A stretch of DNA of 64,000 nt from Eutreptiella sp. 'Long Island Sound 2002'. Lineage: Eukaryota > Euglenozoa > Euglenophyceae > Eutreptiales > Eutreptiaceae. Below are positions 2,819 to 64,000 of the stretch, piece after piece (the stretch's first letter is position 1; every line of letters begins with the position of its first letter). The translations under genes and the position numbers were made by a program. The DNA lies in contig OZ038398.1 in NCBI GenBank assembly GCA_964036045.1, positions 27,954,309 through 28,018,308 on the forward strand. The letters are read 5' to 3'. Below the pieces are notes generated by a model. It worked only from the letters and a program-made list of their open reading frames with translations, ran no database searches and had not been told where the DNA came from.

Positions 2819-5800
2819 GTTCGTGGTTGTGGGCGGAGGGTGAATGGCAGGGAGACGGTCACTGCAGGGGTAAGGAGGCAGGCGTGTGGAAGGAGTCCGT
2901 TCAGGGTAAGAGATGGAGCTGGGAGGGTCAGATACGGTCGGCACTGGGATGGCCATCTCTAGCAGGTGGCAGGTGCAAGGGGAACGTGTGGTGAGTGATT
3001 CGGCACCTCCACCTGTATTCCGGGGCGGTAATGCGATCTGCCAACCTCTATCTTTCGCCACATTGAGTTAGGGATGCACGGCTGGATGCGAAGCCACATA
3101 CATACCCCCTTTCGGGTATGCTTTCGGGGTATGTTTGATGTAGTCAGCGCCCAACAATGCACGTGTGTTGCCCAAAGACATGTAACTGCTGCAAACTGAC
3201 ATACAAACCACGAGGCACTGTACGCTATGACGGGTTTATCAACTCCCCCCCCCCCCCCCCCCACCCACCCACCCACCCACCCACATACCAACAGCAGTAG
3301 ATCACACTAAAAACACGGCACTGGACGCCGGTTGTCCGATGCGCCAACCAATCAGCCTTTATGCCCCCCCGGCCAATGTAGTAGCGCAAGTTCTTGGCTG
3401 GCTCATTGCCACCTTTTTTGGGAAGGACAAAGGTGTGGCACAGTCCAAGATTGCATGTGCTCTAGGATATGCCGGTACAGTAGTTGAAAATTGAGGGCTG
3501 GGTTTTTGTTGTTGATTGGTCTTTGTTATGGAAATCCGAGTGGCCTGGGCTGCGTGGAGTTGTGCCGGCGGCAGCTGCAGCAACAATTGGGAAGGGCTGA
3601 TTCCATCGCGATTGGAGTATGATTGGTGGCAAGTGACAATGACTGCGGAGCAACACAACTGCGAGTAACTGCCGGCCGGAAATAGTAGCCAGCCCAGGCG
3701 GCCAGTAACCGACAGCTCTTGTCGACTTGAAGTGGTCACAGTCCCATCACAACCACAAGATGCTGCGTTTTCACAGATGCAGCAGGCGGCACACACCCGT
3801 GAGGCCCAAAACAATGCCAAAGCGGACAAGATGCAAGCGCTGCTTGAAGCGAGTGAACAAGGAGTTGAAGCGCGTCTCAAGGCCATGCATGAGCAGCGTG
3901 CCATCAAAATGCAGCAGTGGATGAGCTCCACGGTATGCAGAGTGGTCTTATCAGATGACAACTAGTTGTAGTGTCTCATCTTTACAGATATTGCCACCCA
4001 AGCCTTTGGAAGCCATAAACGGCAGTTGGCGACCCCCCCCCCGTCCCCCTTTTTGTCATGTCCTGCTCGATGGGTAGCACTTTTTGAGACAGCATGCCCA
4101 TAGACAAATTGGGGGTTTGCGCACCTTTGCCATGCAGGCCCTGCTCGTGTAGTGCTGGCGCATCTGTGCGGCTTTTGCCTCTGTAAGTTGGGTGAAGAGC
4201 ACTCACAGAAATGTGCAGCATTCATGTCATGGCATACAGCGGGAGGGAGAATTTCAGGCACTGATGATTTCATGGTATAATTTCATTTTTAAGGAAAGTG
4301 GCGAAATCACCTCGAAGAGAGGTTGTTAGATCAAGCGCACGCCCGGACCTGTACACCCCCATTTTGGGGGTCGTTTGCGTAGCATACCCGAAGGCATGAT
4401 ATTGGATGTCCAACCCCTTGTAAAATCATTAGTTTGCCCGACAAAACGATCCCCCAATGGATTTTTTGATTTTAATTTAACCTCTATCCCCGTGAAACTG
4501 AATGTCACATTTTAGGGAGGGAGGGGTTGGGGGGGGGGGGGGCATGTCCGACATGTCCGACATGTCCAGTCTGTAGCATGCACCGTCACAGCGCATGCTA
4601 GCGCATGCTGTCGTCCGTGTGGTAGATAAGGGTCCTGGTCACCTGTGGGTTTCTGTCAAGCGTGGGCGTGGGATGCACTGCAGACATTTTTGACTGTACA
4701 AGGCTACTCCTGGGAGGCGGCCGATCAATCGTCTATTTTTCAAGACCTCCAGCACGCGGTGCAGCGCCACGCGTGGCCAAGCAATCCCAAAGCCCGCCTA
4801 GCCCTCCTCTATCTCATCGGTAAAGCTAAATCTTCCATCCGAGTTGAGATCTTATGGCGTCCCATTACTGCTGCTTCCTCCCCTATCATTTCCCGTTCCC
4901 ACCTACGCATTGCCGCGCGCGCATACACATGCTTCCTTCGTACATTGGTCAGTGAGTTACCCACTGCGTTCCTCGTCCGAAACCTCAACGATATGGGTTC
5001 CTGGGTACGAAAACTGGGCTCCTGGTCCCCCCAATGTATCGGTGAGGCCGGCTGTAAAGAGCAATTTGACCATGTCCCCCCTTCAGTCAATCACATGCGC
5101 GAAGCCGCCGCCTAGTTGAAAGCCCGCCGCCGCTAGCGAGCAACCACGTTGGGCTGGAGCATCCATAAAGAAAATCGCCGCCTAGATCGGGCAGGGCAGG
5201 CAAAAAAGTCCACGTTTCACTTCATCACAATGGATTAGTTGATCTCCCTGGTTGAATTTTCCTTAACCTATGATAATGTAGTCATAGCCGCGGGTGAACC
5301 TTGGCGGCGAGGTGGCGCTATACCCATGGGAGGCCCGTTTAGTGCCTAGTTGGCAAACCTACATTTGCATTTGGATGTGCAAAAAATTGGTCTCCCTCCT
5401 TCGAACCATGGGTGTCATGTCAGTTACACACTCCGGCATCCTGCAATGGACGTTGAATTGCGGGGACATTGTAGCTCTACAACAGTTCCGGGACAACCTG
5501 ATGGTGGCAGCGAAGGGCCCCACACCCAAAACTGCCATGTACACGGTGTGTTGCACCATGGAGTCAATTTGGGGCTTGCGGGTCGTGTGCCCCTGTCTTG
5601 ACAAGGATCCAAACTTGGTTTGCCATGGTGACTGTATGGGTCCGCCAGTCCGTTGCGTCTCCATATACGTCTCGCCGTCTTGCACCCTTGCACATGCACA
5701 CCCCAACGCACTGGATGCCAATTGGCAACTAAAGTTTGGTGCACCCTTACAGAGCCACTGGGCTGCGACCACACGGCACACCACCAATGTGCTGTTGTCG

Positions 5801-8800
5801 GCCCTCTCCAGTGTGTTGCCTTTCGTCCATTCCTGGGGATCATTTTTACTGTCTGTGAGGGTTGGATGCAACTGGCCTTCCTCTCAGGATACCCAGCCCT
5901 CGCCGTGCGCGCATCTGCAGCGGTGCATTGCGTTTTAGCGAGGATCGAGTGGGATGTTCCTATGTCTTTGCGGTGGGTCACATTTATTTCATCGCGCCCA
6001 CTGCAATCCCTCGGGGACACTGTTTCCGACCTCTTAGCATGGCTCCATAAGTCCGCTGTATGGCAGGGCCACCCATATGCCTCCTGGCACATTTCCCATT
6101 TGGGTACCTGTACAGATTTCTGTGCCGACTGGTCTACAGACCTGCTGGCCCTCCAGGGCCTGCAGTCCCTGCTTTCCTCTCATCCACGGGTGGATCCACC
6201 GGGGGCGAGGGGGTGCTGCTGTTACGATTTAACGTCAGAGTTTCATACCAGGTACCCGGTGGCACCTTTTGCTGCTGCCCTGTACCAACCAGATGATAGT
6301 TCATAGGACCATAGGAGTAGTGGACAAACAACATTCATTTGCTGTCTTGTGTGTTACACTGAAAGGCGCCCATGACATGTCACTGAAGAGCTTTAATCTT
6401 CGACTTTTGCTTTGCATTTCTGCTTTGCTTTGAGCAGTGCCAGTCGTGCACACGCAACTGTTTCCCATAGCGGGGGGGGGGGGTTTAAAAGTTTGTCCTT
6501 AGACCAATTTGAACCAGAGTCGGGTGAAAAAGAATAGTTGGTCGCCGATTGTGCAGCAGCGATAGCCGGTCGGGATTTGAACTAGCGACATTCCAAGCGA
6601 AAAGTGAGTGTTCGACCACTCGATCGCCGATTGCTCCGGTGGAATTGGGGTTCCCCACTGTTGGTAGATGTAGGCTGCCACCAATAAAAAAGCCACACTG
6701 TGTGTTTCTGCCTGCACGTCTGCCTGCCTGCCTGCCCGACCGACTGCCTGACTGACTACTTGCCTGACTGACCGACTGATTGGCTGACTGTCAGCCTCTC
6801 TTCGAGTTGCCTTGCCGAAGGCAATAGAATTTTCTCCTGCCGAAATTTGGCCGTGTCGGTAGTGCAGTGAAGATGCCAATGGCCCACTTTAATGTGCAAA
6901 TGTGCACCCTGCCTAGCGGTACGTCAAGGTAGTGTCAAAGGGGAGTTACAACGGTGTGAGTGAGGAGTGAGGTGTGCAAGGAGCACCATTGCCAAGGGGA
7001 TCTAAGGGGGAAGTTGAATTGCTAGCGGGCCGAATGAACAATTGCGGCCACGGGGGGTTCCATAACCCCCCGAAACACGGCACAATTAGCTAATTCACCT
7101 TGGTTTTGTGCCCCAATATAATGTGCTAGATGCCCAATAGAGCCAACAAGAGCAGTGTTCAAAGTGTCAGCACATGTGCCTTTGTCTTCCATTTGGTTGC
7201 TTTCGTTGAGTCTGCATCAAAAGGGATTTTCACGGGTTTTATTGAACAATGTCACCAATGTGCTTGTAATTAGTGCAGCCCCTCCAATTGGACAAAATTT
7301 CTTCACAAATATATGGCACCTGGAAATGCATTGGGGAAAATTCATTGGTTGTTGTCCCCACCACCTTCGGGACCCCCCTCCCTTCTGAATGTTTTGCACA
7401 AAACCGGTGCCCGGCCATGCCACTAGCTTCGGTGCCTGTTTGGGTGTTCAAGTAGGGGCCGTATAGGGAGGGGGAATTTTTGTGGGGGGATGATTTTGCC
7501 GGGGAAAATTCATTGGGGAAATCACCTCGAAGAGAGGTTGTTAGATCAAGCGCAGGCGCGGGCGTCATATACCCCCCTTTTTTGGGGTCATTCGCGTAGC
7601 ATACCCCAAGGCATGATATTGGATGTCCAACCCCTTGTAAAATCATTATTTTGCCCAATAAGAGCATCCCCCAATGGATTTTTTGATTTTGAGGCCTCTA
7701 CCCCCTAAAACTGGATATCACTTTTTGGGGGGGGGGTGGGGGTGGGTTGGGGGGGGGGGGGGGGTCAAAAGTTTTTGCTTAATAGGCTACAAGCAGTGGG
7801 GACGCACGGTGCTGGTAACACGGCCAGCGGTCCAATGGTAACGCAGCGGACAACAGGTGTGCAGGCGTCGGTTCGAATCCTGATCAGCTGACTTTTAGCG
7901 CCGCCGCCGCCGGCGGCGGCGCAAAAGTGGGCAGGCTGGGATTCGAACCGCCGACCACACGGCTGCAGGTCGGCTGCATTACCACTCGGCCACCACCGAA
8001 TACACAAGGCACAAAAGGCCTCCCTGCTGCTTGGCGCCGCATCTGCCACTGACAAAAAACCCAAACTGTGTGTATCTGTCTGACTGCCTGCTTGCTGGCT
8101 CGGGGACTGATTGGCTGACTGTCAACCTCTCTTCGAGGTGCACTGCCGAAGGCAATAGAATTTGCCACCCTAGGCATTCCCAAAAGCCCCAACTACATCC
8201 CTCGAGCACACTCTAATGCGCAAGCCCATGCTCTGTTTCATGTTTCAGAGGCAGAAAGATTTGCAATGGCCACAACATCTAAAAGAATGTGCGGTTCCAA
8301 ACACTTGCCCAAAAACTATGGACCCACAGAATGTAGTGCCATGGGGGAGGCCCTTCGAGCCTCTGAGAATAAGAGGACGACGAGGAGGGACTAGCTTATG
8401 TTGTTACCGGCGAGCGAGCACAAAACGGCAAGTGGGCCTAATAAGAGGGGGGGGGGTCTAGAAAGAGGGTGGGGGTCCACACCCTGCACTAGCCTCCAAT
8501 TTCGAGGCCCCAGCCCCCTCTACTTTGCCCCCTCCTCGTCGAAGGTGAGGATCTTTCGGAGCCCAAGGACAATATTGGTGTCATCCCCTCCTCGGAACCC
8601 AAAGTTGGAGACTCTCCTCCCTCAACAGCCTCCAATTCCAAGGCCCCACCTCCATCTACTTCGCCCCCTGATTGTTGAAGGTGAGGATCTCGTTTTTGAG
8701 CCCAAGGAGGACACCCCCTCCTTGGAGCCGAAGGCTGGAGAATCTCCTCCGACTCCAGCCCCTCCCTCCGAGGACGCCCCCATGTGGCGGTTGGTGAAGG

Positions 8801-11800: not shown

Positions 11801-14800
11801 AGTCAACAAGATCAAGTTCACTGCAGGTACCTTTCTTTGTGCTATTTTTCCATGCCTGTGGGGCAGAGTTGTCTTTAGCGGTGGTCACAATCACAGTCAC
11901 TATCACAGTCACAGTCACAGTCACTATCACAGTCACTATCACAGTCACAGTCACAGACACAGTCATTATCATAAGTCACAGTCACAGTCACACTCACAGT
12001 CACAGTCACAGTCACAGTCACTATCACAGTCACATTTGGGCAGAATTTGTTGTTGCTTTCTGTGTGCCACTTTTCTGTTTGTGTGTTTGTAGAGGACACC
12101 GAAGTCCCGCAAGTCCACACCGGATGCGTGTACCGTGGCATCGCCGAAGCGTGCATTCCGGAAGGAGTGGCAGATCGGGCGCAATTGGTTACTATTCTCA
12201 GTGGACGATGGGATGTGGTGTCTCCTCTGTTATAAGTATCGTCACGATTCCCGAGTGGTACTGAGCACTCTACCCTGCTGTCATGTCTTTTTCATGTCAT
12301 TGTCGTGCTTCCGTTCAGGTACAAGGAGCGCTACTACGTACCGTTGGTGTTGTGCTTTTTGGCTGCGGAGTGCCGGCGCTGGTTGTCGAGGAAGTTGAGC
12401 ATGGCAACATCACGGTCGTTCATGGCCGATGAAGTACGAGTGGCTGGTGAGGATTGGCTGACAATATGTGCACGATGGTTTGGGCCACAAGAATTCAGGG
12501 AAAGTCCAATTGGAGTTTTGCAACTGGGAGAAGACCGCGATGCTGCTGCCTTGGTTGCTGGATTTGTTTCCATTATGCAGGGATTGGGCTGCAATGACAA
12601 GGTGTGGATGAGTTCTTCAACAATTTCGTGCACGTTTGATGGTGCGAAGGTTCTACTTTCAGCAGTATCCCGGTCATTGAGAGAGCGGGTGTTACCAAAG
12701 GACGAGGAAGAGGAAGAGCAGAAGGAGAGTGCCCAAGAGGAAAGGCCTTTGGCAGGCATGTATACACTTTATTGCTGCAGCCATCGCACACAACGTGTGG
12801 ATGCAGATGCAACCAAGAACTCTCCCATTGTGCGGAAGTTGCACTCCTTGCTGAAGAACACTGCGAATTTCTTTGGCCGTTCAACCAAAAGATGGCATGG
12901 AATGCGCCGTGTGGCCCGTTGTATGGGTTATGCCACAGAACTGGGGGCAAAGAAAGCAGTGCTGTGCAGGTACACAAAGTTGCAGAAGACAAGGTTTGTG
13001 GTTTGGAAGGCCAAAGCCATCAAGCGTTGGTTGAAGAATATTTTTGCCCTACTGCCATACCTGGAGGGGTCAAAGTTCAAAGACAGGAAGACTCGTCGCA
13101 AAGCTTCTGGACTTCTTCGCCGTGCGCAAAAGGCTCAGTATGTGTATGCCCTGCATCATTATTTCCACTACTGTGCTGCACTCCAACACTTGTCGCTCAG
13201 CACGCAGGGGTATCAAGCTGTGTTACCAACGTTGCGACATTCTCTGGTCACATGCCACCATATGTTGGACGCTGCGCGCACAAACACGTTCCGTCAAAAA
13301 TGGGATCCTTCAACTGGGAAATATCATACAGTTAAACTGATGGGCACGTTGGAGGAGCTGGACCACGTGGACAATTGGTACACCAGGCTACTGGGCTATA
13401 CACGGCAAGCCTTGAAGGATCGGTTTCCTGAGGATGAAATAGTAACCGCAGCCAGCCTTTTTGACCGCCGAACATGGCCAAAGGAGCCCAAGGACCTGTC
13501 AAAAGATGACCGTCTCCCTGCATTGCAAAAGCTGAGCAGTACATTTCCTGCAATCAAACAGTTTTCGGAGAAGCAGTTTGTGTCAGCGGCCTGTGCAGTG
13601 GCAGCAATGGTACCACCTCTGGTTTCTTCAAGGGGCCGCATACGAGCACATGATTGCACGCATTGTTGGGCAATTGCGAGTCAAGCATCCTGGGCAACGT
13701 CACACCTCCCTGTTGTGCGGGCTGCCACCGTGCTTTGCACTATTGCCCAGTCCCAAAGTTCCACCGAACGTATGAATAGTATGTTGAAGCTAGCTGCGGG
13801 TGGTCGGCGGTGGCGTTTGACCGGACAAGGGTTAGCGGATGAAGTGCTTATTCGTACAGTGGGTCCAAGTCTGCCGGATGCAGAGGATTTGATACATCGG
13901 GCTGTGGTGCAGTGGTCTATCGCTGCGGAACGTCGTCCTCAAAGCTATGAAGACTCATCAGAAAGTGATTCTGATGAAATGGGTACCTCGGATTCCGATA
14001 CTTCGTTTGCTACGGGCTCAAGTATCTCAAGTGGGGAAGAGGGAAGCATGTCAAGCCGTTCAGCAGCTTCAGCTGATGACGATGAAGAGCCTTTGCCGCA
14101 ACCTGAACCAGCTGAACCACAACAACCCGAACAAGCCGAAGAAGATGTGCAACAAGACGCTCCACAAGATGCTGCACCAGATTTCTTGTCATGGCTCTCT
14201 AAGTACCGCCCCCAATTGGCTGCTTATGAGATCCGCCTGCGGCGCGATGGTTGGGACACAGTTCAATCGTTGAAGCTATTGACAGTGGAGGACATGGCGC
14301 AATTGAATATTCTACCAGGACATCGCCGCTTATTGGTGGACACGGTGAAGGACTTGTAGCTCATGGTGCTTGGCCTGGTGGGGCGCCAACATTTTTTGGT
14401 TGGCCCAGAATTGACTGGGGGGTCTTTTGCACTGCACAGTGCCCTTAAACACAAATTCCACCAGCACCACTTTTTGGTATGTACTTTTTCTTGAAGTGCC
14501 GCTCAACCGTGCGCAAGCGTGCGCCACGTTCAGATCTCGCTGTGCGCAACCGTGCATATCCGGAAAAAGTAGCCGTGCGCAACCGTACACGCACGGCTGT
14601 AACCACATGTCTGGTGAGGCAGCGAGAGGTCGGGGGGGGGGTTTTGTTGGAGGCTGAATATTCAAAATTGATTTTTCCTGAGCCAAGTTCTGGGTCAAGA
14701 ATCGTTTCCGGTGGGTGGGTTAGTGGGGGCTCAACCCCTGCCCTTCTTGTACCCAGACGTACCAACTGGCATATTTGCTTTTATGGCAACCCCTCCGCCT

Positions 14801-28004: not shown

Positions 28005-28110
28005 CCCAACATTACCCTTAAACTCAACCGTGACCCTAACGCCCACCCCAACCCTAAGCCTAGTCCTAACCCTACTGCTACCCCTAGCCCTAACCGCAAC
28101 CCTAATCAAG
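28005..28110 (+). repeat. Degenerate telomere-like tract (CCCTAA type)
   Basis: Irregular units such as AACCCTAAGCCTAGTCCTAA and CCCTAGCCCTAACC. It is interstitial, not at a chromosome end. Confidence 0.7.
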
Positions 28111-29014: not shown

Positions 29015-29126
29015 AAACTAAAGTTTATGCAGTAAACTTGAGTTTAAATTGGGCAAGGGGGTGGGAGGAGGGCACCTCGTGAACACTCGCCTAGTGTTTG
29101 TTTGTTTTGTGGTGTGCCGTCGCCCT
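29015..29126 (+). repeat. Split direct repeat A1
   Basis: 112 bases identical to A2 at 34461-34572. It begins AAACTAAAGTTTATGCAGTA and ends TGCCGTCGCCCT, four bases before the Gag ATG. It holds half of the junction palindrome and probably the promoter or leader. Confidence 0.95.
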
Positions 29127-29130
29127 GACC

Positions 29131-30147
29131 ATGCCCGAGTCTGAGAACCAGCCGATCAAGTTTGAGGATTACCTCGAGCAGGGCCAGCATAAACTGGCCA
29201 CGCAGCTGCTAAACGCATCCACGCTTCAGCAAGACACGGACAGACTCGTGGCGGCGGCAAAGACAGCGGGAATTGACACCGTTGAACTAGCAGATCGGCT
29301 GAGGCAGAAGTATGGTCTGAAGGGATCCATGGAGGGCATCTACGAGCAAGTCGTAGCCTTCGGGACCCTCCACAAGCGGACCTTCAATTGGAACGACTGC
29401 ACGTTCTACATGTCAGCACAGCATGCCCAAGTGATCGCAGGGAACGGAACCCCGGAGAAGAACCCCGCGGACGTGGTGTCAATTGGGGGCAACTCCAGTG
29501 CCAGCGGGTCGCCAAACGACAAAGGGGTGCACGCAGACATCGAGAAAATGCGCCAAGAAATGGAGGACATGAAGCTCGTGATGGAGCAGCAACTACGAAC
29601 GATACAAGAGCTACGAGCGTCCAAGACAGTGCCGCAGCTGCGGCAGGTGGTTTTCGTACTGGAAGCAGGACATGAGATGGAGGCCAACGAGGCGAAACCT
29701 GACTGGGCGAGAGCGATAGCGGGGGCGATGGCAGGCTGGGCGGCGGAGAATCTGCAAAGCATGCTGGAGTCTGAGTACGAGGCGGCGATGAAGGCCCTGT
29801 CCGAAGTGTGGTCACACCTGCTGTTCGAGGTCGAAAAGGAGGAAGTCAAGGCGCAGCTGGAGGCTCGAACCGCCGACGGAGCAAACGGGGCCAGGGGCTC
29901 AGGGAAGGCGAACGTCAAGGAGGAGGGAGCAAAGACCAGGCCTCAGACGGGAAAATTGGCTCCGCAGCACGTGCAAGACAGGCGGAGGGAGCGAGTGAAG
30001 GACCGCTTCACCAACATGGGAACACCCGAAGAGACGTACGAGTCCAAAGGCGGCAAGGTGCTCAAAACAGGGAAGCCCCCGCGATATCCCTGCGACGTGT
30101 GCAGAGTCAAGCACTGGTGGTTCCAGTGCCCAGTCGAGAGCGACTGA
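29131..30147 (+). CDS. Gag-like protein of the YR retrotransposon
   Basis: 338 residues. The start chosen is ATG 29131 (context GACCATGC), the first ATG after A1; the open frame begins slightly earlier without ATG. The N-terminal half is helical and moderately charged. Residues near 145-175 form a short coiled coil (KMRQEMEDMKLVMEQQLRTI). A basic stretch follows, and the C terminus has a zinc knuckle CDVCRVKHWWFQC, spaced C-x2-C-x3-H-x4-C, one residue shorter than the classic retroviral knuckle. This is expected to package the RNA. The TGA stop at 30145-30147 is followed immediately by the in-frame ATG of the recombinase, so readthrough or reinitiation could couple the two. Intact. Confidence 0.85.
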   Translation: MPESENQPIKFEDYLEQGQHKLATQLLNASTLQQDTDRLVAAAKTAGIDTVELADRLRQKYGLKGSMEGIYEQVVAFGTLHKRTFNWNDCTFYMSAQHAQVIAGNGTPEKNPADVVSIGGNSSASGSPNDKGVHADIEKMRQEMEDMKLVMEQQLRTIQELRASKTVPQLRQVVFVLEAGHEMEANEAKPDWARAIAGAMAGWAAENLQSMLESEYEAAMKALSEVWSHLLFEVEKEEVKAQLEARTADGANGARGSGKANVKEEGAKTRPQTGKLAPQHVQDRRRERVKDRFTNMGTPEETYESKGGKVLKTGKPPRYPCDVCRVKHWWFQCPVESD

Positions 30148-31587
30148 ATGGAAGGGGGTCCCCGCCGCCTCGGAGCTCGGCGAGACGGCGGGCGCAGGGG
30201 GGCAGCAAGTGCCCGTGGAGGGGACGGTTGGGGGGCGGCCCTCCAAAAGATGGAGAGACTACGCACACAAGACGCTCTGCACAGCTGGCAGACGTTTGTC
30301 CTGCTGGGATGGGAAGAATCGTCATTGGGGACGTACCAGTGTCACCTGCGCAGGCTGGCGGCGGTCGAGCGGCGGTTCCCATGTGATGCCAAGGAGCGGG
30401 TCCTGGAGCAGGCCATATTGGAGTGCGCCCGATTGGGGAAGTCCGAGAGCACAATCAAAGGGATCATCAGCGCAGCCGTTATGGCGACAGAAGTGCGGCT
30501 GGTTGACGCGTGCATCCCGGCCACCATCTGGAGATCCGTCAAGGCGGCGAAGAAGACAAGGAACGCGGCAAAAGAACGTATCTGGGGATCCCCGATCATG
30601 CTGCTACACATGGCAGCAAGGGCCAGCGGCCTGGAGGACTGGGCAGTGGTCGGGCTGGCCATCGACTCGTTCCAGCTCTTCCTGCGCGTCGGAGAGGCAA
30701 TCACTCTACAGCCTTGGGCGGTCGTGGACGACGCCGTACGGTTCTTCGACTCCAAGACGAGGCAGGACTGGCAACAGAGGTCACTCACGCCGCTTACAAG
30801 GGAGTGGCTGCAGTGGCTCCAGCGCCACTTCCCAGAGCCGGCGGCGGAAGGAAGGCGGCCGTGGACGACACAGCAGCTGGAGAAGGGCATGCAACGCCTC
30901 CTCGTCGGGTCCCCATTTGAGGGTGCCCGCTGGCACGCTTGGCGCAGAGCTGGAGCTCGAGCCATGTGGACGGCAGGGGCCACAATACGGCAGGTCGCCG
31001 TGTGGGGCCGCTGGGCACGTGACTCCACCGCGCGGTGGTACGCGCATCCGACCGAAACGCAGCCCGTGCAAGCGGAAGATTTCTGGCCGCGACCTCCCCG
31101 AGAGGGAGCTGGAGGCAGGTGGCGCAGCCGCACGACGTCCCTACGGCTCGAACAGCTCTGGCCGTCTGGGATACGACAGCAGTGGAAGCACAGAAAGGAG
31201 CATGTGGCGTTTGGGCCCTCGAGGACCATGCCCGGGACCGACGGGCACGCTGGAAACTCGACGGCGGCCCAGGGCGGGGCGGGGAGCAAACTGCGACCGA
31301 AGCGACAGCTCGCCAAGCACAGGCAGGCACCCGATAACGGGGGCGGCAGCTCGACAGGGGCGCGGCAAGTTCAGGGTGGTGGGCAGCAAGTGCCGGCCTC
31401 CTCAACCGAGTCGGCTTCGTCCGACTGCCGTCCCACAGAGGAAGCCCTCGTCCCCTTGCGCCTGGTCCCTAAGTTTAAGAGAGGGCGCGCTGAGGAGGCC
31501 CGGGCACAGGGGGGGTTCAAGCGAGTGCGGAGAGCCACCGGCAGCGTGTCCTACTCGTCTTACTCGTCTTACTCCTCCACCGCTTAG
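30148..31587 (+). CDS. Tyrosine recombinase (integrase) of the YR retrotransposon
   Basis: 479 residues, intact. The catalytic pattern is visible: Arg180 in FLRVGE, a candidate Lys203, His263 and Arg266 in WHAWRRAG, Trp289 in the His/Trp position (WGRW), and the nucleophile Tyr298 in STARWYAH. Residues 35-150 resemble a SAM-like core-binding domain. The C-terminal 170 residues are low-complexity, rich in G, R and P, and end with SSYSSYSST. It probably recombines the circular DNA intermediate into the genome at the AAACT core. The start directly abuts the Gag stop, in the same frame. The RT frame (+1 relative) is already open across this gene, leaving room for a frameshift. Confidence 0.9.
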   Translation: MEGGPRRLGARRDGGRRGAASARGGDGWGAALQKMERLRTQDALHSWQTFVLLGWEESSLGTYQCHLRRLAAVERRFPCDAKERVLEQAILECARLGKSESTIKGIISAAVMATEVRLVDACIPATIWRSVKAAKKTRNAAKERIWGSPIMLLHMAARASGLEDWAVVGLAIDSFQLFLRVGEAITLQPWAVVDDAVRFFDSKTRQDWQQRSLTPLTREWLQWLQRHFPEPAAEGRRPWTTQQLEKGMQRLLVGSPFEGARWHAWRRAGARAMWTAGATIRQVAVWGRWARDSTARWYAHPTETQPVQAEDFWPRPPREGAGGRWRSRTTSLRLEQLWPSGIRQQWKHRKEHVAFGPSRTMPGTDGHAGNSTAAQGGAGSKLRPKRQLAKHRQAPDNGGGSSTGARQVQGGGQQVPASSTESASSDCRPTEEALVPLRLVPKFKRGRAEEARAQGGFKRVRRATGSVSYSSYSSYSSTA

Positions 31588-33082
31588 TGGAGAGCTGTGG
31601 CTGTGCGTAGGCGGGTTTGGCGCTTTGTTGGCGGTACTGGTGCGACTAATTTCGCGGGCGTGGTGGGTTGCGGTGGTATGCGCGTCGTACGTGGCCTGCG
31701 TGTGTCGTGTCGGGGCGGGAGTAACGTCTGATGCTACCGTTGAGGCGGGGCGGCCCTCCAAGGCCAGGTTCCGAGAGGCCATGTATCAGCTTTCGCTGCG
31801 TTTTGCGCAAAAGTGGGGTGTAGAGCAGGGACGCGCGTACAAGGCGTTGGATGTGTTCAGGAAAGAGGTGTTCCAGTTGAGTGAGGATTTGAGGGACGAC
31901 AGGCCACTACTAACATGGATGCATCTGTGCGAGGCCATGGTCATGGAGGGACTTAGGGAACTGCTGGACGGCATTTACCCCGCCGTGCCGGAAGGTGAGG
32001 TGACTCCTGAGATAGCCCAAAAAGGGATAGGGTCAGTGGGTGCGGTTCCACTGCCGGATTGGCTGTGGCAGATCTATGTCAGTCCGCGACAGGAGATTTT
32101 ACTCTCTTCTGCTGAGGAGGTACGGAAGGTGCGAGGACCCACGGCTGACATGCTCAGGGCCATTGCAGGGACAGGGGCACTGCAGCAACTGTCTAGGCAG
32201 GAGGCGGATGCCTTGGGCATTCCGTGGTCGCCTACGGCGACTGCCTTCACCATCCCCAAAAATGAGACCAAGGCGCGACTTATCCTGCACGGGGTGCGCG
32301 CAAACCAGCGGCAGTGGGAGGGCGGGTACAGGGTGCCGCGTGTCAGCCTGCCTCAGGTAGAGTCTTTAGCGGAGGTTTTTTCGCAAGGGCTGCGTGGCTG
32401 GGGGGCCAACATCGACATCACAAATTGTTACTGGTCTATACTGCTGCCAAAGGGGAAGGGCCACCTTTTTCGTGTGGGGGGGGAGGAGTGCGTGTGGATT
32501 TTTAAGACGCTGCCGTTTGGTTGGAGCTACAGTCCACTACTGTGTCAGCGACTGCTGGCACAGTTGACGGGGAAGGTGGGGCTGGAGGTGGCAGGGGCGG
32601 TGCTGCGGCTCATGCACTACCTCGATGATTTTCTGGTTTTCGGCGACTCCGAGGCCGCCGTCGCCACAAAGCTGGCGGAGTTCAAGGAAGTTCTGAAAAA
32701 CGCAGGCTTCCTGATCAGTGAAAAGTCGTCCAGTCGGCCGGAGAGGGAGCTTGTCTTTTTAGGCAAGCATGTCGACTTTGGGCGGGGGGTCATTCTGAAC
32801 ACCAGGCACACGTTGGAAGATGCCCTGAGCAGGTACGTACTGATGGCATCCAGGCCGGTTACGCGAAAGTCCGTACAGCGGGTGGTGGGGAAGTTGATCT
32901 GGGCCTGCAGGCCATCGCATTGGTCAAACCTTTTTCTGGCGCGGCCCATTGCGCACGTACAGTGGGGCGCAAAATGGATGCCGCACCCGCCCACAAACCT
33001 TCTGCGGTCGCTGTCGGGTGCGTTGTGGTTTGCTGGGAGGGGCTGGTGGCCGCCTACGTCGTCCCCCCCCCCCGCCCCCTAA
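31588..33082 (+). CDS. Reverse transcriptase of the YR retrotransposon
   Basis: The frame (codon starts congruent to 2 mod 3) is open from 30209, but RT-like sequence begins after the recombinase stop; a candidate start is ATG 31781. Motifs in order: KARLILHGVRANQ (near 32270), NIDITNCYWSILL (motif A, near 32408), TLPFGWSYSPLLC (motif B, near 32510) and YLDDFLVFG (catalytic Asp codons at 32624 and 32627), then KSSSRPERELVFLG. This is the DIRS/Ngaro-like RT pattern. The frame ends at TAA 33080-33082 just after a C-run (33063-33079), and RNase H continues one base ahead. Either the run is mis-sized here, or a shift is needed. Expression from the recombinase frame could use a +1 shift, or internal initiation. 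Confidence 0.88.
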
Positions 33083-33563
33083 GGGGCTGTGCCCGCAGGT
33101 GTACTCCGACGCAGCGCGGGACGGAAATAGTGGCAGGCTGGGTATGTGCTCATCGGCGGGAGCGCACCACTCCCTGCGTGTACCGCTGCAGAACCAGCAG
33201 GTGCTAGAATTTCGAGGGGCGGCTGCGGCCGTGAAATCAGTGGTGGGACGGAAGCTCCCTTGGGCTACACTGCATCTGGACAACCAAGGGGTGCTCTGGG
33301 GCCTAAGATCAGGGAAAGTGGGAATTGGGCTGAGGGAGCAGCGTCGGTGTGTTCGACAAATAATGTATGCTCTGGCAAAGGGAGGGACTTCGGTGCACCT
33401 TTCGTATGTACCCGGGGCCATCATGCCGGCGGACTATCTGTCTCGGGTCTGCACCAATTTTTTTGGTGACAAGAGCATGGCACTGGGGTCTGCCTTCGAC
33501 CAAATGGCAGATTTGTTACCTGTTTGCACTCAGACAGAATGTTGGGGTGTCTTGCGGTTCTGA
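33083..33563 (+). CDS. RNase H domain of the YR retrotransposon
   Basis: The frame (codon starts divisible by 3, open from 32949) ends at TGA 33561-33563. RNase H signatures: VYSDAARDG (first Asp, near 33108), VLEFRGAAAAVKS (Glu), TLHLDNQGVLWG (Asp) and YVPGAIMPADYLSR (final Asp). It removes RNA from the RNA-DNA hybrid. It is separated from the RT only by the C-run frameshift at 33063-33079, so RT and RNase H were almost certainly one polypeptide. No Dam-type methylase motif, typical of DIRS, was found after it. Confidence 0.85.
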
Positions 33564-33717
33564 TTTCGAGCCGTGAGTCTGCGCGCCTGTAGTGAGCCTG
33601 CGGTGGGTGTGCGTGAGCGTCGTGCGTGTGCCCGGCAGCAAGTGCCTGGGCTGTTGAGGGGAGTGTTGTGCACTGCTCGTGGCAGAACTTTGTTTTGCGG
33701 CGCCACACGTGCTACAC

Positions 33718-34221
33718 ATGCCACGAGCTGGCAGCGCGCAGCGCGATGCGGCGCAGGTGGCGGCTAAGCGGGGGCGACGAGACGATAGACTGGTGGCGGC
33801 TCACAGGTTTGAAGAAGTATACGAGGTGGCGAGCGTGTCATATCGAACGTGGACGGTCACACCAGGGCTGGCGAACAGTAAGCGCTTTCCGGTCGTGATG
33901 CGGTTGTGCAGACGTGTCGAGGCAACATGGCGGCGCGAGACGCAACGCAAGGTCGAAGGAAAGCCGCAGGGAACACACTCCATGGAGCGAGCGGTCTTCA
34001 TCCCAGAGTGGACCGGGGCGACACGTGGCGTGCGTATCTCCGTAACGGTGGAAAAGCTGAAACACGGGCCTCGGCTACCGCCGGGGACGCAAAGGCTTTG
34101 GGCCGCCGGTTCGCCGGCTATGGTGCAGGCGGTGGCCGCAGTGATGCGGGAAGTGCAGCAGGAGGGGGGTGGCCACGGAGAGGTGGAAAGCGCAACTGGA
34201 GATGTGGACCAAACCCAGTAA
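33718..34221 (+). CDS. Unknown ORF 4 of the YR retrotransposon
   Basis: 167 residues from ATG 33718, intact, 154 bases after the RNase H stop. The middle is basic (RRVEATWRRETQRKVEGKPQ) and the end acidic (GDVDQTQ). No family recognised. It lies between RNase H and B1, where Ngaro elements carry an extra ORF (a hydrolase in some), but the typical GDS or HxD patterns are not seen. It may be a real accessory protein or chance in GC-rich DNA. Confidence 0.5.
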   Translation: MPRAGSAQRDAAQVAAKRGRRDDRLVAAHRFEEVYEVASVSYRTWTVTPGLANSKRFPVVMRLCRRVEATWRRETQRKVEGKPQGTHSMERAVFIPEWTGATRGVRISVTVEKLKHGPRLPPGTQRLWAAGSPAMVQAVAAVMREVQQEGGGHGEVESATGDVDQTQ

Positions 34222-34246
34222 GAAGGGTGATTTTGAATAATTTTTT

Positions 34247-34465
34247 TGTGCTCCCTGGTGGTGGTGGTGACGGGTGGTGCCGCCGGCACAGCAGCACAAT
34301 GGTCACGCGACACTACGTTCTTTGGGTTCAGCAATGTCCACGACTGTGCACTGTTGTCTCGTCTATTGTGTGGATGACAGTGAGGGGAGGTGGAAGGAGG
34401 TGCGTGGGGTTTGGTTGGGCGAAGCAGCAAGTGCCAAGCCCATGGGGGGAAAACCAATTTAAACT
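34247..34465 (+). repeat. Split direct repeat B1
   Basis: 219 bases, two mismatches to B2 (34864-35082). It begins TGTGCTCCCTGGTGGTGGTG and ends CCAATTTAAACT, overlapping A2 by the 5-base AAACT core. Confidence 0.95.
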
Positions 34466-34498
34466 AAAGTTTATGCAGTAAACTTGAGTTTAAATTGG
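34454..34498. promoter_or_regulatory. Lox-like palindrome at the B1/A2 junction
   Basis: The left arm CCAATTTAAACTAAAGTTTA (34454-34473) and right arm (34479-34498) are inverted repeats with one mismatch in 20, around a 5-base spacer TGCAG. The size and form recall sites of simple tyrosine recombinases. The palindrome exists only where B joins A, as in a circular intermediate; each outer end keeps only one side. It is the likely recombinase-binding site. The host junctions fall at AAACT within the left arm rather than at the spacer. Confidence 0.8.
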
Positions 34499-34572
34499 GC
34501 AAGGGGGTGGGAGGAGGGCACCTCGTGAACACTCGCCTAGTGTTTGTTTGTTTTGTGGTGTGCCGTCGCCCT
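34461..34572 (+). repeat. Split direct repeat A2
   Basis: 112 bases identical to A1. It is followed by 291 element-specific bases before B2. Confidence 0.95.
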
Positions 34573-34863
34573 CCCACCCTCCCTAAAACAACGGGCACGT
34601 GCCGGACGTGCGTGGGTGAGCGCGCAAGGTGTGGCATAGAGTAGCAAGGGCCGCGGGGCGAAGTGTGGCGCACGGGCACAGAGCAACTCGCCAGCGAACG
34701 GCCTCGAGGGGGCCGTGACACGTTTCACGGGAGAACCACCGCCCACCACAGGCACAGGTACAGGCGCGGCCGTCGCACAGGCGATGGACCAACGTATATG
34801 TGTGTTGTATAAACGTCTATCGGGACCGTGAATGTCCCCTACCATGCACCACCCGCACCACCC

Positions 34864-35082
34864 TGTGCTCCCTGGTGGTGGTGGTGACGGGTGGTGCCGC
34901 CGGCACAGCAGCACAATGGTCACGCGACACTACGTTCTTTGGGTTCAGCAATGTCCACGACTGTGCACTGTTGTCTTGTCTACTGTGTGGATGACAGTGA
35001 GGGGAGGTGGAAGGAGGTGCGTGGGGTTTGGTTGGGCGAAGCAGCAAGTGCCAAGCCCATGGGGGGAAAACCAATTTAAACT
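34864..35082 (+). repeat. Split direct repeat B2 (right end)
   Basis: 219 bases. It ends CCAATTTAAACT and is followed by host sequence TTGTGTGATTG. Confidence 0.95.
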
Positions 35083-35235: not shown

Positions 35236-35302
35236 AACCTGGTAGGTCCACCCTAGACACTAAAAAGGGTTATAAAACCAAGACCGGTTCCACCAGCTCG
35301 GT

Positions 35303-35400
35303 GACCGCAACCCTAACCCTAGCCCTTACCCTAACACTAGCCCTAGCCCTACCTAGCCCTCACCCTAGGCCAGGGTGAGAGTTAGTGTTGGGGTTAGTGA
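35303..35400. repeat. Interstitial telomere-like tract with inverted arm
   Basis: CCCTAACCCTAGCCCTTACC and variants run to about 35372. They are followed by the partial inverse, GGGTGAGAGTTAGTGTTGGGG, so the tract can fold back on itself. Confidence 0.75.
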
Positions 35401-54689: not shown

Positions 54690-57585
54690 AACAGAAGGCG
54701 GGGGAGAAACGCAACGTAGAGGCAGGCCAGAAGGGGCAAAACACACCCACAGTGTACTATGTAGGCAGTAGTGGGGAAGGGGTTCGGAAATTGCTCAAGG
54801 GCCCTGGGCGGTGCCATGTGGGCGGCCAAGGGCCCAATGTCGACACCTTGGCAACCTTGCTACTTGAGGCCAGCCGATCTGCTAGTGACTTGCCATGTGC
54901 TAGCCCATGGGGGGGGAGGGTTGAATGGCAAGGTTGGTGGGTAGCGTTAGTTGCCCCACGAACCTGGAAGTCAGTTCATTCGTGGGTTGTATTGTGGCAC
55001 CTTGTCCACTTGCGTGTCGTGAAGTAACCATGCAGGAAGGCCGGCTTCCATTGAAGGGCAAACAAGTACTCCCCCCCCCCCCCTTGTCCACCCCATGGTC
55101 ACCATGACGCCCGCAACTAAATCGTTTTGTTTTGGCTTCTACCTCAGGTCCATATACCTATGAGTCGCTTTTCTGTTCATAGATGTATGCATCCTGTACA
55201 TAGCATCCCAGAGACTTTCGAACTGTTGCAGTGGAATCATGGTTGCGCCCCCTTGTCCACCCCCCCCCCCCCCACCCTGTTGACAAAACAGGGCCATCAG
55301 GTGCAGCTGATTGTATGGTAGCACATTTGTATCATACCAATGCTCTTATGAACTGCCGAACATTGCTGCATATGCATACCAGGACGTGCATGTGTAGAGC
55401 GCTTTGAGACCTGCTTCCGCCCACCCTGTCCATTCCGGGCCGGGGGGGGGGTCACTTGGCCCATGAGCAAGAAGAAATCAATTGGAAATCACAGGCACCA
55501 AAGGGGCCGAATATTCTTTTTAGTTGGGTTATACTGGAATTCAGGTTACTGTTGTGTGGTGTCCGTGCCCCCCTAGGTTGGGGGGAACCGTCATGTGGTG
55601 ATAGTTACCCCCGGGGTGGCGGAGAACTGCCGTCCCTTCGGGGCCGGGGTCGACATTGGGGGGGAAGGTACATCATGGAATCGTTCGTTGAACCCATTGA
55701 CGCGAAAAACTATGGCAAAATCCATGAGTTAGCGATTGATGCAACAATTATGCAACAATAATGGAAGCAACGAACATCCCACATGGGGATACAAATCATA
55801 CTTGGATACTTGACACACAACCCCAAACTGATGACTAATGCCTTCCTGGAACCTCCAAGGAGTTCAGGCTAACAGCCCACAAAGTGCATAGGGATGCACG
55901 AAGCCCATGGAGCAAGCAACAACGACACAAGTAGGTGGTCCAGGGTATCCGAAGCCCAACAAGCCCACAATGTGCTGAGGTGCTTGCCACACCTTTCCAT
56001 GCCCAAGAGTGTGGAGGCACCTTCGGCGCCTTTGGCACTCAGAAGAGGCAATACTGGGGTTGTTCCGTAGTCCGCAATCATCCAGAGCCAATTAGGGGGA
56101 ATAGTAACGCCTCACAGCCCACCGGGTACCATCTACAACTCCTCTCCCGGTAGACCATCTCCAAGAGAAGTTGTTCAAATACTTGACACGGTGCGCGCAC
56201 GGTGTGGATACTCCCCCAGCGACAGGAAGGGAACTGCCTGACAGCCATCTTTCACCGCACACATAATTCCCCCATCTTCCAACCTCACGGTGCCCCCAAG
56301 GGAGGGCACTGCATGCCTAGTCAACCAAGACTTACGACTAGGACCGAGCTAGGTCCTAGTCTTGCTTAATGCACAGGAAACCGGCTTGGAAGAAAAACAG
56401 CTTGCTTTGGAGATGGTCTTGCACGTACAGGAGGATCATCTTGAAAAACGACTCAAAGATGGCTCATTTTCACCTCAAAATGGACCACCGCGTGGAACCA
56501 CAGTGTGGAAGATGCCTCATTCAACACTCCTTTGCAATCATTTTATTGCCCAAACACAATGGAAGAAGAACGGCCCTCGTTGGAGACACTTGCTTGACAC
56601 ATTGGTGATCGACGTGAATCACCTCAATTTCAGGACGGTCGTCTCAAAACAAGCTAAAAATGGCCATTTTTGGACACAAAGTCGGCCAAAAAACAATGGG
56701 CTAGACGGCTGGAAATGGCACAAAACTTGTTGCAAGTGATGCACATTTGCTGTGCAGTCGTTTTGAGCCGGTTTTGAGCCACGGTGTCCCTGAAAAGGGT
56801 TTTTAATCTGCTAGCTCGGTGATTAAGCCCTGCAACGCTTCCATCATGGATGAAGAATTGCGCTCAGCCACGTGAAAAGCCATTTTCCCCAATGGAATGA
56901 AGTTGTCCAGTTCTTCAAGATGAGGTGCAAGGTTGGCAAGGGGTTCTATTGGTGCCTCCCATGACGTTGCCGAACAGTGTCAAATGAAGAGTGTGCAGCG
57001 TAGGCGGTCTATGAACTATCCGCCAATGTGTTGCCCAATGTGCAGAAAAGACACGATGTGTAACGTTGCATGCATAGGGTGTTCATTATTTGGAGGACAT
57101 GATATTTATCTGGAATTTTGTACTGCAAATTTTGTACTGGTTGCTAAAAACTGGACCATATTTGTGCAGATATGCGACACAATGCTGCTGTCCCTGAGAA
57201 GTCAGAGGTACAACACGATACGTCAGCGGGCAGCTCATGTAATGTCACTTTTTGTACCGAACTAAGTGTAAACAGCGCGATTGTGCCAGTTGCCAACCGG
57301 TCTAATGCAGGCGCAATTGGAGTAACACGTGGCCTCTTAGTGATTGTTGTCAAATACTTTCATTGGTATTTGGGGTGAGTCCTTATGAAGCACAAGTTCG
57401 TACACAAACATTGGTGTGCAAATGAGGGCAAGTTTGCAAAGCATACAAAAGGCATGTGTTCTACTGGCTGTCAATGTGACCCCCCCCCCTTTTCACTTTC
57501 TGAGTGTCTATTTTTTTTCGGTGTCTTTTTGTCCATGCTTGCCCGGGCCGCTGGGCCTTGACAAACTGTCGCCGACGCCACCTCC
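54690..57585. other. Spacer, no supported gene
   Basis: Open stretches (for example 54569-55027 and 56362-56739 plus) have no recognisable motif and the composition of spacer. A frame at 57172-57378 reaches a good donor, GGG|GTGAGT, at 57375 and might be an exon of the following gene. C-runs occur near 55075 and 55262. Confidence 0.35.
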
Positions 57586-61036: not shown

Positions 61037-61575
61037 ATGAGATGGGAACACCGTGGGGCGCGCATTTACCGGGTCTGGGACAGGGGTCGGCCTTTCAGTT
61101 GGCCTGTTTATAAGACGTATCTACGGGGGCACCTGGGCCCCTACAAGCCGTGGGAAGCCCTTCTGCTGTTGCTTGGGGGAGACATCGAGCTCAACCCCGG
61201 GCCTTCAAGTGGTCAATGGGCTGCCGTGTATACCGCACTGAACAAGGGAGTGGTCAAGTCTGCTACCGGTTGCACGCAACCAAGTGGCGATGGCCTCCGG
61301 TGGGCGTCCTTCAATATTGGGGGCCCCACGGTTGATTGGGACCGATGGGTCACCATCGTACAGCTCTTGTCTGATATGCGCCTCGACATTGTCGGCTTAC
61401 AAGAAGTTAAGCCTACCTTCCCCAACATAGAGGCGGCAACAACATTAACCTTCCCCGAGTGGCAGATCTACCATTACCCACACCCGTCCGGGACCATCAA
61501 TGGGGTGGCATTCCTGGTCCGCAACACAATGGACCACTTCGTGCTCAAGGACGGCAATCAACGTGCCTCGCTTTG
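61037..61575 (+). pseudogene. N-terminal part: 2A-like peptide and endonuclease start
   Basis: From ATG 61037 the protein has a basic leader, then ALLLLLGGDIELNPGP (61178-61204 for GDIELNPGP). This fits the 2A consensus D(V/I)ExNPGP, which makes ribosomes skip the Gly-Pro bond. Similar N-terminal 2A sequences are known in trypanosome L1Tc and sea urchin CR1 elements. The endonuclease begins RWASFNIGG with GLQEVK (catalytic Glu) and GVAFLVRN. After KDGNQ (about 61560) this frame turns to nonsense and the next frame continues the domain. One base is therefore lost or gained there. Confidence 0.82.
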
Positions 61576-62210
61576 CAGACCCAGACGGGACCTTTCTCGG
61601 ACTTACTTTGCAGCTTCCCAACAAGCCACGGCTACGGGTCCTCAACTACTATGGACTCCAAACTGCAGCCACCAAGAAGAGGCAAGATGCCTTTGTTGAG
61701 ACACACCAATACGATATACTCATGGGCGACTTCAACGACTCTATTTGGAGCAACACCCCAAGTCGGTTTTGGCACGATGACCTTCTGAACCGCCGTCTAT
61801 ACGACCCGCTGCACGAACTATGCCCCGATGGGTCTGTACAGGCGGGACACACCAGAGGGTGCCACCGCCTGGATGCCATCCTGGTCTCTTCGCGGTGCTG
61901 GGGGAATGTTAGCCCCATGACATACCATACTGTCGCCATGCCCACCTCCGACCACCGGCTCGTCCTAATGACTACAGGCCTCACCTCCACGGACTGTGAG
62001 TCCTTCATCAAAGCCACGCACCCTGCCAAGAAGTGGAATGTGCGGCAAGAGCGAGCCGCCGTGCAGGAGACACAACGCATACTCGCCGGGCAAGACACCC
62101 CAATGGACGCAGTATCACGCGCTGATGCGGTCCTCAAGGTGGTGGCGCAGGCCGTCATTCGACAGGGGAAGCGCACCAAGCGGACCCGTCTCAAAACTAA
62201 CACACAATAG
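61566..62210 (+). pseudogene. Endonuclease C-terminal part
   Basis: In the frame with codon starts divisible by 3: LRVLNYYG, DILMGDFND (catalytic Asp and Asn), HRLDAILVS and TSDHRLVL (the SDH catalytic triad end). These are the standard APE-like endonuclease motifs that nick target DNA for primed reverse transcription. A linker follows and the frame ends at TAG 62208-62210. Coding sequence continues in the same frame after it, so this TAG is a single point interruption. Confidence 0.85.
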
Positions 62211-64000
62211 TGGCACAAACACTTCCAAGTGGTCAAGAAGCGCATCGCGCAGGAACTGCGCGAAGTGGCCAACAAGCGCCTCTATACCATGCGTCATGCT
62301 GCCCTCCGCAAGGATGGGGTATTCTTCCGCTTGACCAAAAATTGGACCCGCGGACCATTGAAGCCCACGCAGAAGCAACCGAGTCCGGACGTGGCGCGCG
62401 CTTTGCTGGCCAACTTCAGTGGCAACCCCCCCTATGACATGGCGGCCATTGAAGCACTCATCCCACAACTCATCCCACAGGGGCACATGACTGACGACCC
62501 ACCAAGCTTCGATGAGTTCAAAAGGGCATGTATGGGCAAGCGCAAGAAAGCCGTGGGCCCTGATGGGGTTCCGCACCGCTTGCTGGGCATGCTGCCAGAC
62601 GATACGCTGCACACATTGTATGAGGGGGTGCTAGAAGTATGGAGAACAGGAGATATCCCGCAGCATTGGCTGCGGTCTGAGGTGGTGTTGATGTACAAGA
62701 AAGGGGATCCTGACCGCCCCGAGAATTATCGACCCATTGCCGTGACCAACAGTATATATTGTGTTATCATGAAGTTGTACAGGCCCCGTCTGCAGCGCCT
62801 TGTGGACCGGGTTGCTAGCCCCGAGCAGTATGGGTCAAGGCCTTTGCACACCGCAACTGAGCAAGCTGCAAACCTAGTCAACTCCCTCCACGAGCACGAA
62901 ATGGAGGGCCGGGAGCCTTTTGTGGTTTTGTTGGATGTTGCCAAAGCCTTCCCGTCCACAATCCATGAGGTCATTTTCTCCATCCTGAACCATGCCGGGC
63001 TCCCGCCGAACTATGTGAACGCCTTCCGCACGATCTATGCACATACTGACACATACACGGACATACAAGGAGAAGGGATATATTTCAAGCCCACGCATAC
63101 TGACACATACACGGACATACAAGGAGAAGGGATATATTTCAAGCCCACGCGGGGCGTCAAAGAAGGATGCCCCTGCTCCCCGCTCTTGTTCGCTATTGTA
63201 TATGAGTTGTTGATCAAGCGTTTGATCGCCAAGTACCCGGACACATTCGTTTATATTGACGATATTGCCATCATTGTCAAAGATTATTCTGAATTGGAAC
63301 GACTCCTCACCGACCTCTCTGCTTGGGGGTCCCAGATTGGGATTCAGTTCAATCCTAACAAGACAGAAGTGTATCACTTCCACAGACCACGGTCCTCGGG
63401 CGCTACCGCAGGGGGTGCCCAGCAGGCAAAGCACATCTGGTGGGGACAACATCGCCTCGACTTCAAGGATCCCATGTTCACCTACTTGGGCCACACCATC
63501 GCTGGTGTAGGGTATAGGGGCAAGGCTAGGGATGCGCTCTTCGCCGCCCTGCAAGCTCAGGTAGCCGCATACACCATCCTCCCGTTGACAAGCTTTGAGC
63601 GGGCACAAATCGTCAATTCCGTACTCATCCCCAGGTGGGTATATAAGAGTCTCTTTATGTGGGATGTGTGTTGGGGCAACCGCACGGAGACCGCCTTCGA
63701 AGAGTTTGTCCTTCAGGCTCCCCGCGTGGAAAAGTACCTGCAGCACCGCCTCTACACGGATGTCACCGAAGGGGGACTGGGCCTCCACAGTGCGTCCTGG
63801 GCCGGTTTATGCGCCCTTATTCAGCTAGTCCAACGGGCCTTGCGAGTTCCACACAGGCCTATGACGAGGCATACCAACTCAGGTCATCTCCCACACATGG
63901 TGGAGAAGTACCGCAAAATCCTGCTGTCCTTTGGTATGGAAATGGGGCGCCTCCCTCGCGCCGGCCAATCGATAGGTCGAAAGGCACCCAAACGGGCCCA
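62211..64000 (+). pseudogene. Reverse transcriptase part, open to the window edge
   Basis: Same frame as the endonuclease C-terminal part. Motifs: KKAVGPDGVPHRLL (RT 0/1), VVLMYKKGDPDRPENYRPIA (RT 2), VVLLDVAKAFPS (motif A), RGVKEGCPCSPLLF (motif B) and FVYIDDIAIIV (motif C, with both Asp, near 63250). FTYLGHTIAG (motif E-like) follows. Between motifs A and B, an 18-residue segment is duplicated in tandem. The thumb and C-terminal region is open to base 64000. No further stops were seen. Antisense open frames here (for example 62874-63788) are shadows. Confidence 0.87.
63042..63149 (+). repeat. 54-base in-frame tandem duplication in the RT
   Basis: 63042-63095 and 63096-63149 are identical, each starting CATACTGACACATACACGGA and ending AAGCCCACG. 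It adds 18 residues between RT motifs A and B without shifting the frame. Confidence 0.92.

Follow-up and report, generated by a model that had tools for sequence, protein, structure and literature searches.

A probable VIPER-like tyrosine recombinase retrotransposon in the genome of a euglenid

The window analyzed here is a stretch of 64,000 nucleotides from the euglenid Eutreptiella sp. 'Long Island Sound 2002' (contig OZ038398.1, positions 27,954,309 to 28,018,308 of the forward strand). Positions 29015 to 35082 of this window hold a retrotransposon encoding a tyrosine recombinase (YR), whose family is called E1 hereafter. Its genes lie on a single strand in the order Gag, YR, reverse transcriptase (RT), RNase H and a fourth open reading frame (ORF4), all of them between the split repeats A1 and B1. 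We consider the element to be a recently active, VIPER-like YR retrotransposon of a euglenid host, with a probability of about 0.78.

Anatomy and coding content of the element

The element, all features of which lie on the + strand, is delimited by split direct repeats, as proposed by the first-pass annotation. A1 (29015..29126, 112 bp) is identical to A2 (34461..34572) at 112 of 112 positions, and B1 (34247..34465, 219 bp) matches B2 (34864..35082), whose constant part stops at 35081, at 217 of 219. A2 shares the bases AAACT with B1, the presumed circle junction, and is separated from B2 by a spacer of 291 bp (34573..34863), which measures 272-291 bp in 11 of 12 complete copies and is longer in L030. 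The strongest inverted repeats of the element are located in A and at the B-A junction; its terminal repeats are direct, not inverted and paired with internal complementary regions as in DIRS1. On both sides, the element is flanked by degenerate CCCTAA-like repeats (28009-28104 and 35292-35363).

The Gag-like ORF (29131..30147) contains a zinc-knuckle-like motif, C-x2-C-x3-H-x4-C (30091..30129), which was recognized by eye and has no Pfam match. It shares its frame with the YR gene (30148..31587, 479 aa), and its TGA stop immediately precedes the ATG of the latter (TGAATG); this boundary reads TGAATG in 18 of 19 copies and TAAATG in the remaining one. The assignment of the recombinase, with its R...HAWR...Y signature, is based on its Pfam match, its fold and its invariant residues. 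The match to PF00589 is weak (E 3.3e-4, under the curated cut-off). A structure model (mean predicted local distance difference test score, pLDDT, of 58, better at residues 30-300) retrieves Cre structures as top match, followed by XerA and lambda integrase, with E values of 7e-5 to 1e-3 and low template modeling scores (TM-scores). The active-site residues R180, H263, R266 and Y298 are invariant across three relatives sharing 25-32% identity.

The RT gene lies in a frame that stays open (29999..33082) across the end of Gag and the whole of YR. No stop interrupts it within YR, where 7.4 are expected, and synonymous shuffling of YR yielded a stop-free frame in 0 of 2,000 trials. This frame is stop-free over the remaining YR sequence in 18 of 19 copies, L035 having one stop. 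The RT domain core (32357..32764), with the motifs PFGWSYSP and YLDD, matches PF00078 clearly (E 7.3e-14), and is followed by a putative RNase H-like domain (33099..33563) assigned from its position and from residues identified by eye. Between the two lies a C-rich run (33062..33079) whose length decides the frame of RNase H relative to RT. In 14 copies including that of the window, both are in frame in six, one base off in seven (the window copy among them) and two bases off in one. This break may reflect homopolymer sequencing error, real slippage or programmed frameshifting. The first-pass annotation saw all core enzymes, but RT and RNase H occupy different frames in the window copy, which is thus not fully intact.

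ORF4 (33718..34221, 167 aa) lies 3' of RNase H, is open in most copies, and has no convincing Pfam match. A Pfam search of the ORFs found no methyltransferase, in agreement with the annotation, which had seen no DIRS-type methylase. The RT frame that stays open through YR, the frame break between RT and RNase H, ORF4 and the 291-bp A2-B2 spacer are features that had gone unremarked.

Copies, age and mode of insertion

The assembled genome (2.28 Gb) was searched for further copies, and the stretches of sequence that carry them are designated by L-numbers. A query of A1 extended by nine bases found at least 40 matching places (40 scored of 336 candidates), and a protein search listed at least 102 RT matches of the E1 family (95 scored of 8,765 candidates). 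Eighteen stretches were fetched around the best A1 matches. A1, B1, A2 and B2 are all kept in 12 of these; the others are cut down, tandem or incomplete within the stretch. RT is kept in 14 of the 18, and in all 14 it follows Gag and YR. The four stretches devoid of RT comprise two with only Gag and YR, one that keeps part of RNase H, and the deletion copy L033. In none of the 18 does YR lie downstream of RT/RNase H, the arrangement that would have contradicted the proposed order Gag-recombinase-RT-RNase H, which is thus correct and fixed within E1. Its recurrence elsewhere in the genome, on many chromosomes, also refutes an assembly artefact or a chance join of two elements, an explanation of negligible probability whose sole support is the shift of frame at the C-rich run. 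One stretch, L023, has an inversion within YR.

Among copies, the mean ratio of nonsynonymous to synonymous differences (pN/pS) is 0.41 for Gag (n=19), 0.54 for YR (n=16), 0.50 for RT (n=14), 0.36 for RNase H (n=14) and 0.60 for ORF4 (n=15), values that carry no error estimate and that, for YR and RT, partly reflect the constraint that each gene places on the other where they overlap. RNase H is open in 13 of 14 copies and ORF4 is open and free of indels in 12 of 15. The pN/pS values suggest that selection acted on all five coding regions in the source lineages. Synonymous differences among copies amount to ~1.5-2.6%, therefore the E1 family is young, as had been proposed.

Several copies illustrate local rearrangements. 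L026 (C11:28122461-28131961) contains two copies at a distance of 5,157 bp whose left flanks are identical, the element having been duplicated in tandem together with its flank. Five places (L050-L054; four on C11 at 51.8-53.2 Mb and one on C23) have one left flank in common, and are probably a single insertion multiplied together with its surroundings. L032 stops with B1, precisely where the AAAC core lies, and misses A2 and B2. It was considered as a product of the recombinase and set aside as evidence, plain recombination between the 219-bp B1 and B2 giving the same end.

Reading the ends across copies defines a left junction core, AAAC (29015..29018), common to the element end and its target. 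Left ends follow the pattern A-N-C-T in 35 copies (AACT in 25, ATCT in nine and ACCT in one), which consist of 19 copies chosen by best match, a set leaning to AAACT, and 16 of 20 further ends that could be read, five of them with one common flank. Right ends are constant through AAAC in 15 of 15 copies, and the bases past AAAC are variable. No target-site duplication was found in the flanks of 15 copies, nor at the empty sites of the L033 insertion. When the L033 flanks were joined with the core counted once, the resulting sequence matched all 40 scored places (of 176 candidates) without any change in length at the junction, and 37 of these matches covered the full 180 nt. Six empty sites that were fetched measure 180 nt each, and have one common difference two bases from the junction, with one extra difference in L067. 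Given these equal lengths, the L033 insertion neither duplicated nor removed target DNA. Such a mode of insertion fits a recombinase working on the junction of a presumed circular intermediate. A palindrome, AGTTT-N7-AAACT, in the left flank of the window copy, as in the A1 site (three in the window versus 0.09 expected), was examined as a possible target and is a coincidence, since AGTTT occurs at that place in none of 18 other flanks.

Models put forward for Ngaro, PAT and VIPER elements provide a plausible scheme for the mobility of E1. RNA lacking full ends would be reverse transcribed, with the internal B1A2 junction serving as the template that restores both ends, thereby producing a closed DNA circle with the junction CCAATTTAAACTAAAG. 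The Cre-like recombinase would then exchange strands between this junction and a short matching chromosomal core, leading to insertion at a short A-N-C core free of target-site duplication. YR could be made through reinitiation at TGAATG or read-through of the stop, and RT/RNase H through a shift into the overlapping frame or internal initiation.

Related families and probable kinship with VIPER

The deletion copy L033 sits inside another YR retrotransposon, of family E2, which has the order Gag, YR, RT/RNase H. The A repeats of this E2 copy are 85 bp long (97.6% identity) and its B repeats 110 bp (99%), with stops in YR and RNase H. In L068, another copy of E2, the A and B repeats measure 80 and 108 bp, respectively. 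It carries an open Gag, an open YR and then an RT/RNase H gene interrupted by a frame shift and a stop; its RT start frame is stop-free over YR (14.1 stops expected; 0 of 2,000 shuffles stop-free). The E2 Gag has a zf-CCHC domain recognized by Pfam close to its end. The same-frame layout in which Gag is separated from YR by a stop is found in E1 and in the interrupted E2 copy, and is not claimed here as conserved because YR overlaps Gag in a different frame in L068. Family E3 (L069) encodes Gag, YR and an intact RT/RNase H frame of 1,158 codons, which extends over most of the YR frame (no stops versus 10.8 expected; 0 of 2,000 shuffles stop-free); its B repeats are 106 bp (100%) and its A repeats 37 bp, with a B1-A2 gap of ~110 bp, unlike E1. 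Family E4 (L070) has split repeats and an RT frame of 1,006 codons. The one E4 copy seen shows no recognizable Gag or YR core, and is thus uninformative on gene order.

RT identities among the four families range from 26 to 41%, those of E1 with the others from 26 to 32%, and YR identities among E1-E3 from 26 to 29%. A search of the genome with the RT of P0029, a protein retrieved by protein searches like P0005, P0028 and P0030, returned at least 79 RT places at 28-35% identity, including copies of E2-E4, therefore the group is large in this genome; no match above 35% was found among these 79 scored of 29,572 candidates, and P0005 matches this genome at 100%. No relatives were found in the viral contig and genome contig collections. 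Two repetitive features of these copies can be mentioned. The E3 copy in L069 is bracketed by direct repeats of 1,184 bp (1-1183 and 6234-7417; 99.7%), which may be elements in tandem or a target that was duplicated, and L070 contains a tandem array of ~46-bp units (5333-6408) between the RT/RNase H frame of E4 and B1.

The first-pass annotation had raised the possibility of an undescribed clade of YR retrotransposons. Several families with this gene order do exist in the genome, but the order is not new, since VIPER and TATE elements of kinetoplastids have been described with it. For VIPER, the order Gag, YR, RT/RNase H is stated outright (PMC5146736), and both VIPER and TATE are presented as having Gag-like, YR and RT/RNase H ORFs, with A1 at the 5' end and B1, A2 and B2 at the 3' end (PMC6681497); in Trypanosoma cruzi, the VIPER repeats are 173 bp (A) and 219 bp (B) long (PMC6681497). 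The YR (335 aa) and RT/RNase H (942 aa) genes of VIPER overlap, after Gag (PMC5146736, PMC12278014), and VIPER inserts without target duplication according to PMC12278014. E1 resembles VIPER in gene order, YR-RT/RNase H overlap (on which published accounts disagree), split repeats, the absence of a methyltransferase and of target duplication, and in the zinc-knuckle-like motif of Gag, present in some VIPER elements (PMC6681497, PMC12278014, PMC3266345). E1 differs by its euglenid host and its additional ORF4, and the two are likened by structure, not by sequence. TATE likewise encodes Gag, YR and RT/RNase H (as ORF3), and that of Leishmania braziliensis has the same repeat pattern (PMC6681497). 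It resides in telomeric hexamer repeats, whereas E1 copies are found in diverse flanks, one of them (L013/L031) in CCCTAA-like repeats.

VIPER occurs in kinetoplastids, among them T. cruzi and Bodo saltans, and has been called known only from kinetoplastida (PMC3783388). Euglenozoa includes euglenids as well as trypanosomatids (PMC2663770). As the host shares this affiliation with kinetoplastids, a VIPER-like element is the natural reading of E1, which is VIPER-like in every structural feature tested and in its mode of insertion; membership of the group by descent is likely. By anatomy and host only, E1 falls inside a clade known to have this order, the outcome that the first-pass annotation had named as refuting a new clade.

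In PAT-type elements, YR lies downstream, except in kangaroo, where it is inverted. PAT, TOC3 and kangaroo have split direct repeats, as does E1, and kangaroo and TOC3 occur in algae (PMC4157794). They are grouped by a methyltransferase domain that some have lost, whereas E1 has no methyltransferase match. Ngaro resembles E1 in its split direct repeats, A1-[ORFs]-B1A2B2 (PMC8547959), and in the absence of a methyltransferase (PMC3266345), but its order is Gag, RT/RNase H, YR (PMC8547959), while YR is upstream in E1. Split direct repeats being common to PAT and Ngaro, and homoplasy being common among YR elements (PMC4157794), E1 could be conceived as a PAT- or Ngaro-like element whose YR gene moved upstream recently within the host lineage. 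We regard this as very improbable: E2 and E3, whose YRs share 26-29% identity with each other and with that of E1, have the same order and frame overlap, and given such divergence the order is old. DIRS1 is also a YR retrotransposon, with an overlap between YR and the frame of pol in half of 28 elements (PMC3266345). It differs from E1 by its inverted terminal repeats, its methyltransferase and the location of its YR domain at the 3' end (PMC3266345, PMC5633606), its order being Gag, RT/RNase H, YR (PMC5633606). The YR of DIRS1-like elements is numbered as the second ORF, and its catalytic part lies at the non-overlapping 3' end (PMC3266345).

Several observations weigh against the VIPER-like interpretation. 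A Pfam search of the ORFs gave no match for RNase H, and the RT/RNase H structure model (pLDDT 36) does not confirm this domain; the mutual constraint of YR and RT and the lack of error estimates noted above temper the pN/pS values. In contrast to PMC5146736 and PMC12278014, Ngaro and Viper are usually without ORF overlaps according to PMC3266345. ORF4 and the 291-bp A2-B2 spacer are absent from the descriptions of VIPER cited here, and SIRE implies ~30 bp at that place. Finally, in two small, unlabelled RT trees, E1 joins P0030 with local supports of 0.91 and 0.85 on very long branches, and E2-E4 stand apart. The E value of the match to P0030 is 5e-10 for E1, against no better than 0.002 to 1.2 for E2-E4. 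P0030 is presumably DIRS-like, judging from a methyltransferase motif. These small trees speak against an easy placement of E1 and were not used for classification; the likeness to VIPER is judged by anatomy, insertion mode and host.

The same trees could instead point to a YR retrotransposon lineage of its own, so far undescribed, which reached its gene order independently of VIPER. Such a lineage would account for the position of E1 apart from E2-E4 and beside P0030, for its RT being only 26-32% identical to those of the other families, and for its extra ORF4. Also in its favor, published trees of these groups, whether of RT, RNase H or YR, show poor resolution and modularity (PMC6681497). 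We nevertheless hold such a lineage to be unlikely, as VIPER has the same gene order, split repeats, YR/RT overlap and mode of insertion, likewise lacks a methyltransferase and also has a euglenozoan host, and pairwise scores of E1 are higher against E2-E4, P0028 and P0029 (75-144 bits) than against P0030 (51 bits).

Beyond E1 itself, the balance of evidence tilts slightly toward this euglenid holding an old VIPER-like radiation of at least four families, at 26-41% RT identity, with the YR gene wholly inside the RT/RNase H open frame. If true, the group would be as old as Euglenozoa rather than a peculiarity of kinetoplastids, and would stand on a par with DIRS, PAT and Ngaro; the numerous well-preserved VIPER-like copies and the several families in a free-living euglenid would shift its origin toward the base of Euglenozoa. 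E1, with its ORF4, may then be a separate branch of the group or a link toward DIRS-like elements. The RNase H tails read LNPADVPSR in E2 and FNPADCPSR in E4, which we take to recall a hepadnaviral motif; that of E1 is less alike, and no Pfam match was obtained. VIPER and TATE are monophyletic in RT, and their RNase H has been tied to hepadnaviruses (PMC6681497). The euglenid families would provide material for these poorly resolved trees, including the claimed VIPER-hepadnavirus tie, and this euglenid a harmless host for experiments on circle formation and insertion. Searches of the open-licence PMC literature listed no report of VIPER-like elements in Euglena, nor of any outside kinetoplastids, and the word DIRS does not occur in the main text of PMC11252322. 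Some of the repeats left unclassified in the Euglena genome, which represent 32.7% (PMC11252322), would be explained by such elements.

Other features of the window

The spliced leader of Euglena gracilis, printed as ACTTTCTGAGTGTCTATTTTTTTTCG in PMC6242988, provides a marker of the host. The 21 bases of its 3' part have 1,742 + 1,827 exact matches in the genome (3,569), versus 0 + 0 for the reversed control. One exact match lies in the window at 57500-57520 (+), followed by GT and by an open frame of 255 codons from 57562; it is either a fragment of a spliced-leader gene or a copy of a trans-spliced RNA. Further downstream, 61449-63998 (+) holds an endonuclease-like frame (PF03372, weak) and then an RT frame (PF00078, E 4e-28) that runs past the end of the window, a probable long interspersed nuclear element (LINE). 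Upstream of E1, an open frame of 707 codons with a SAM domain at its end extends over 12236-14359 (+).

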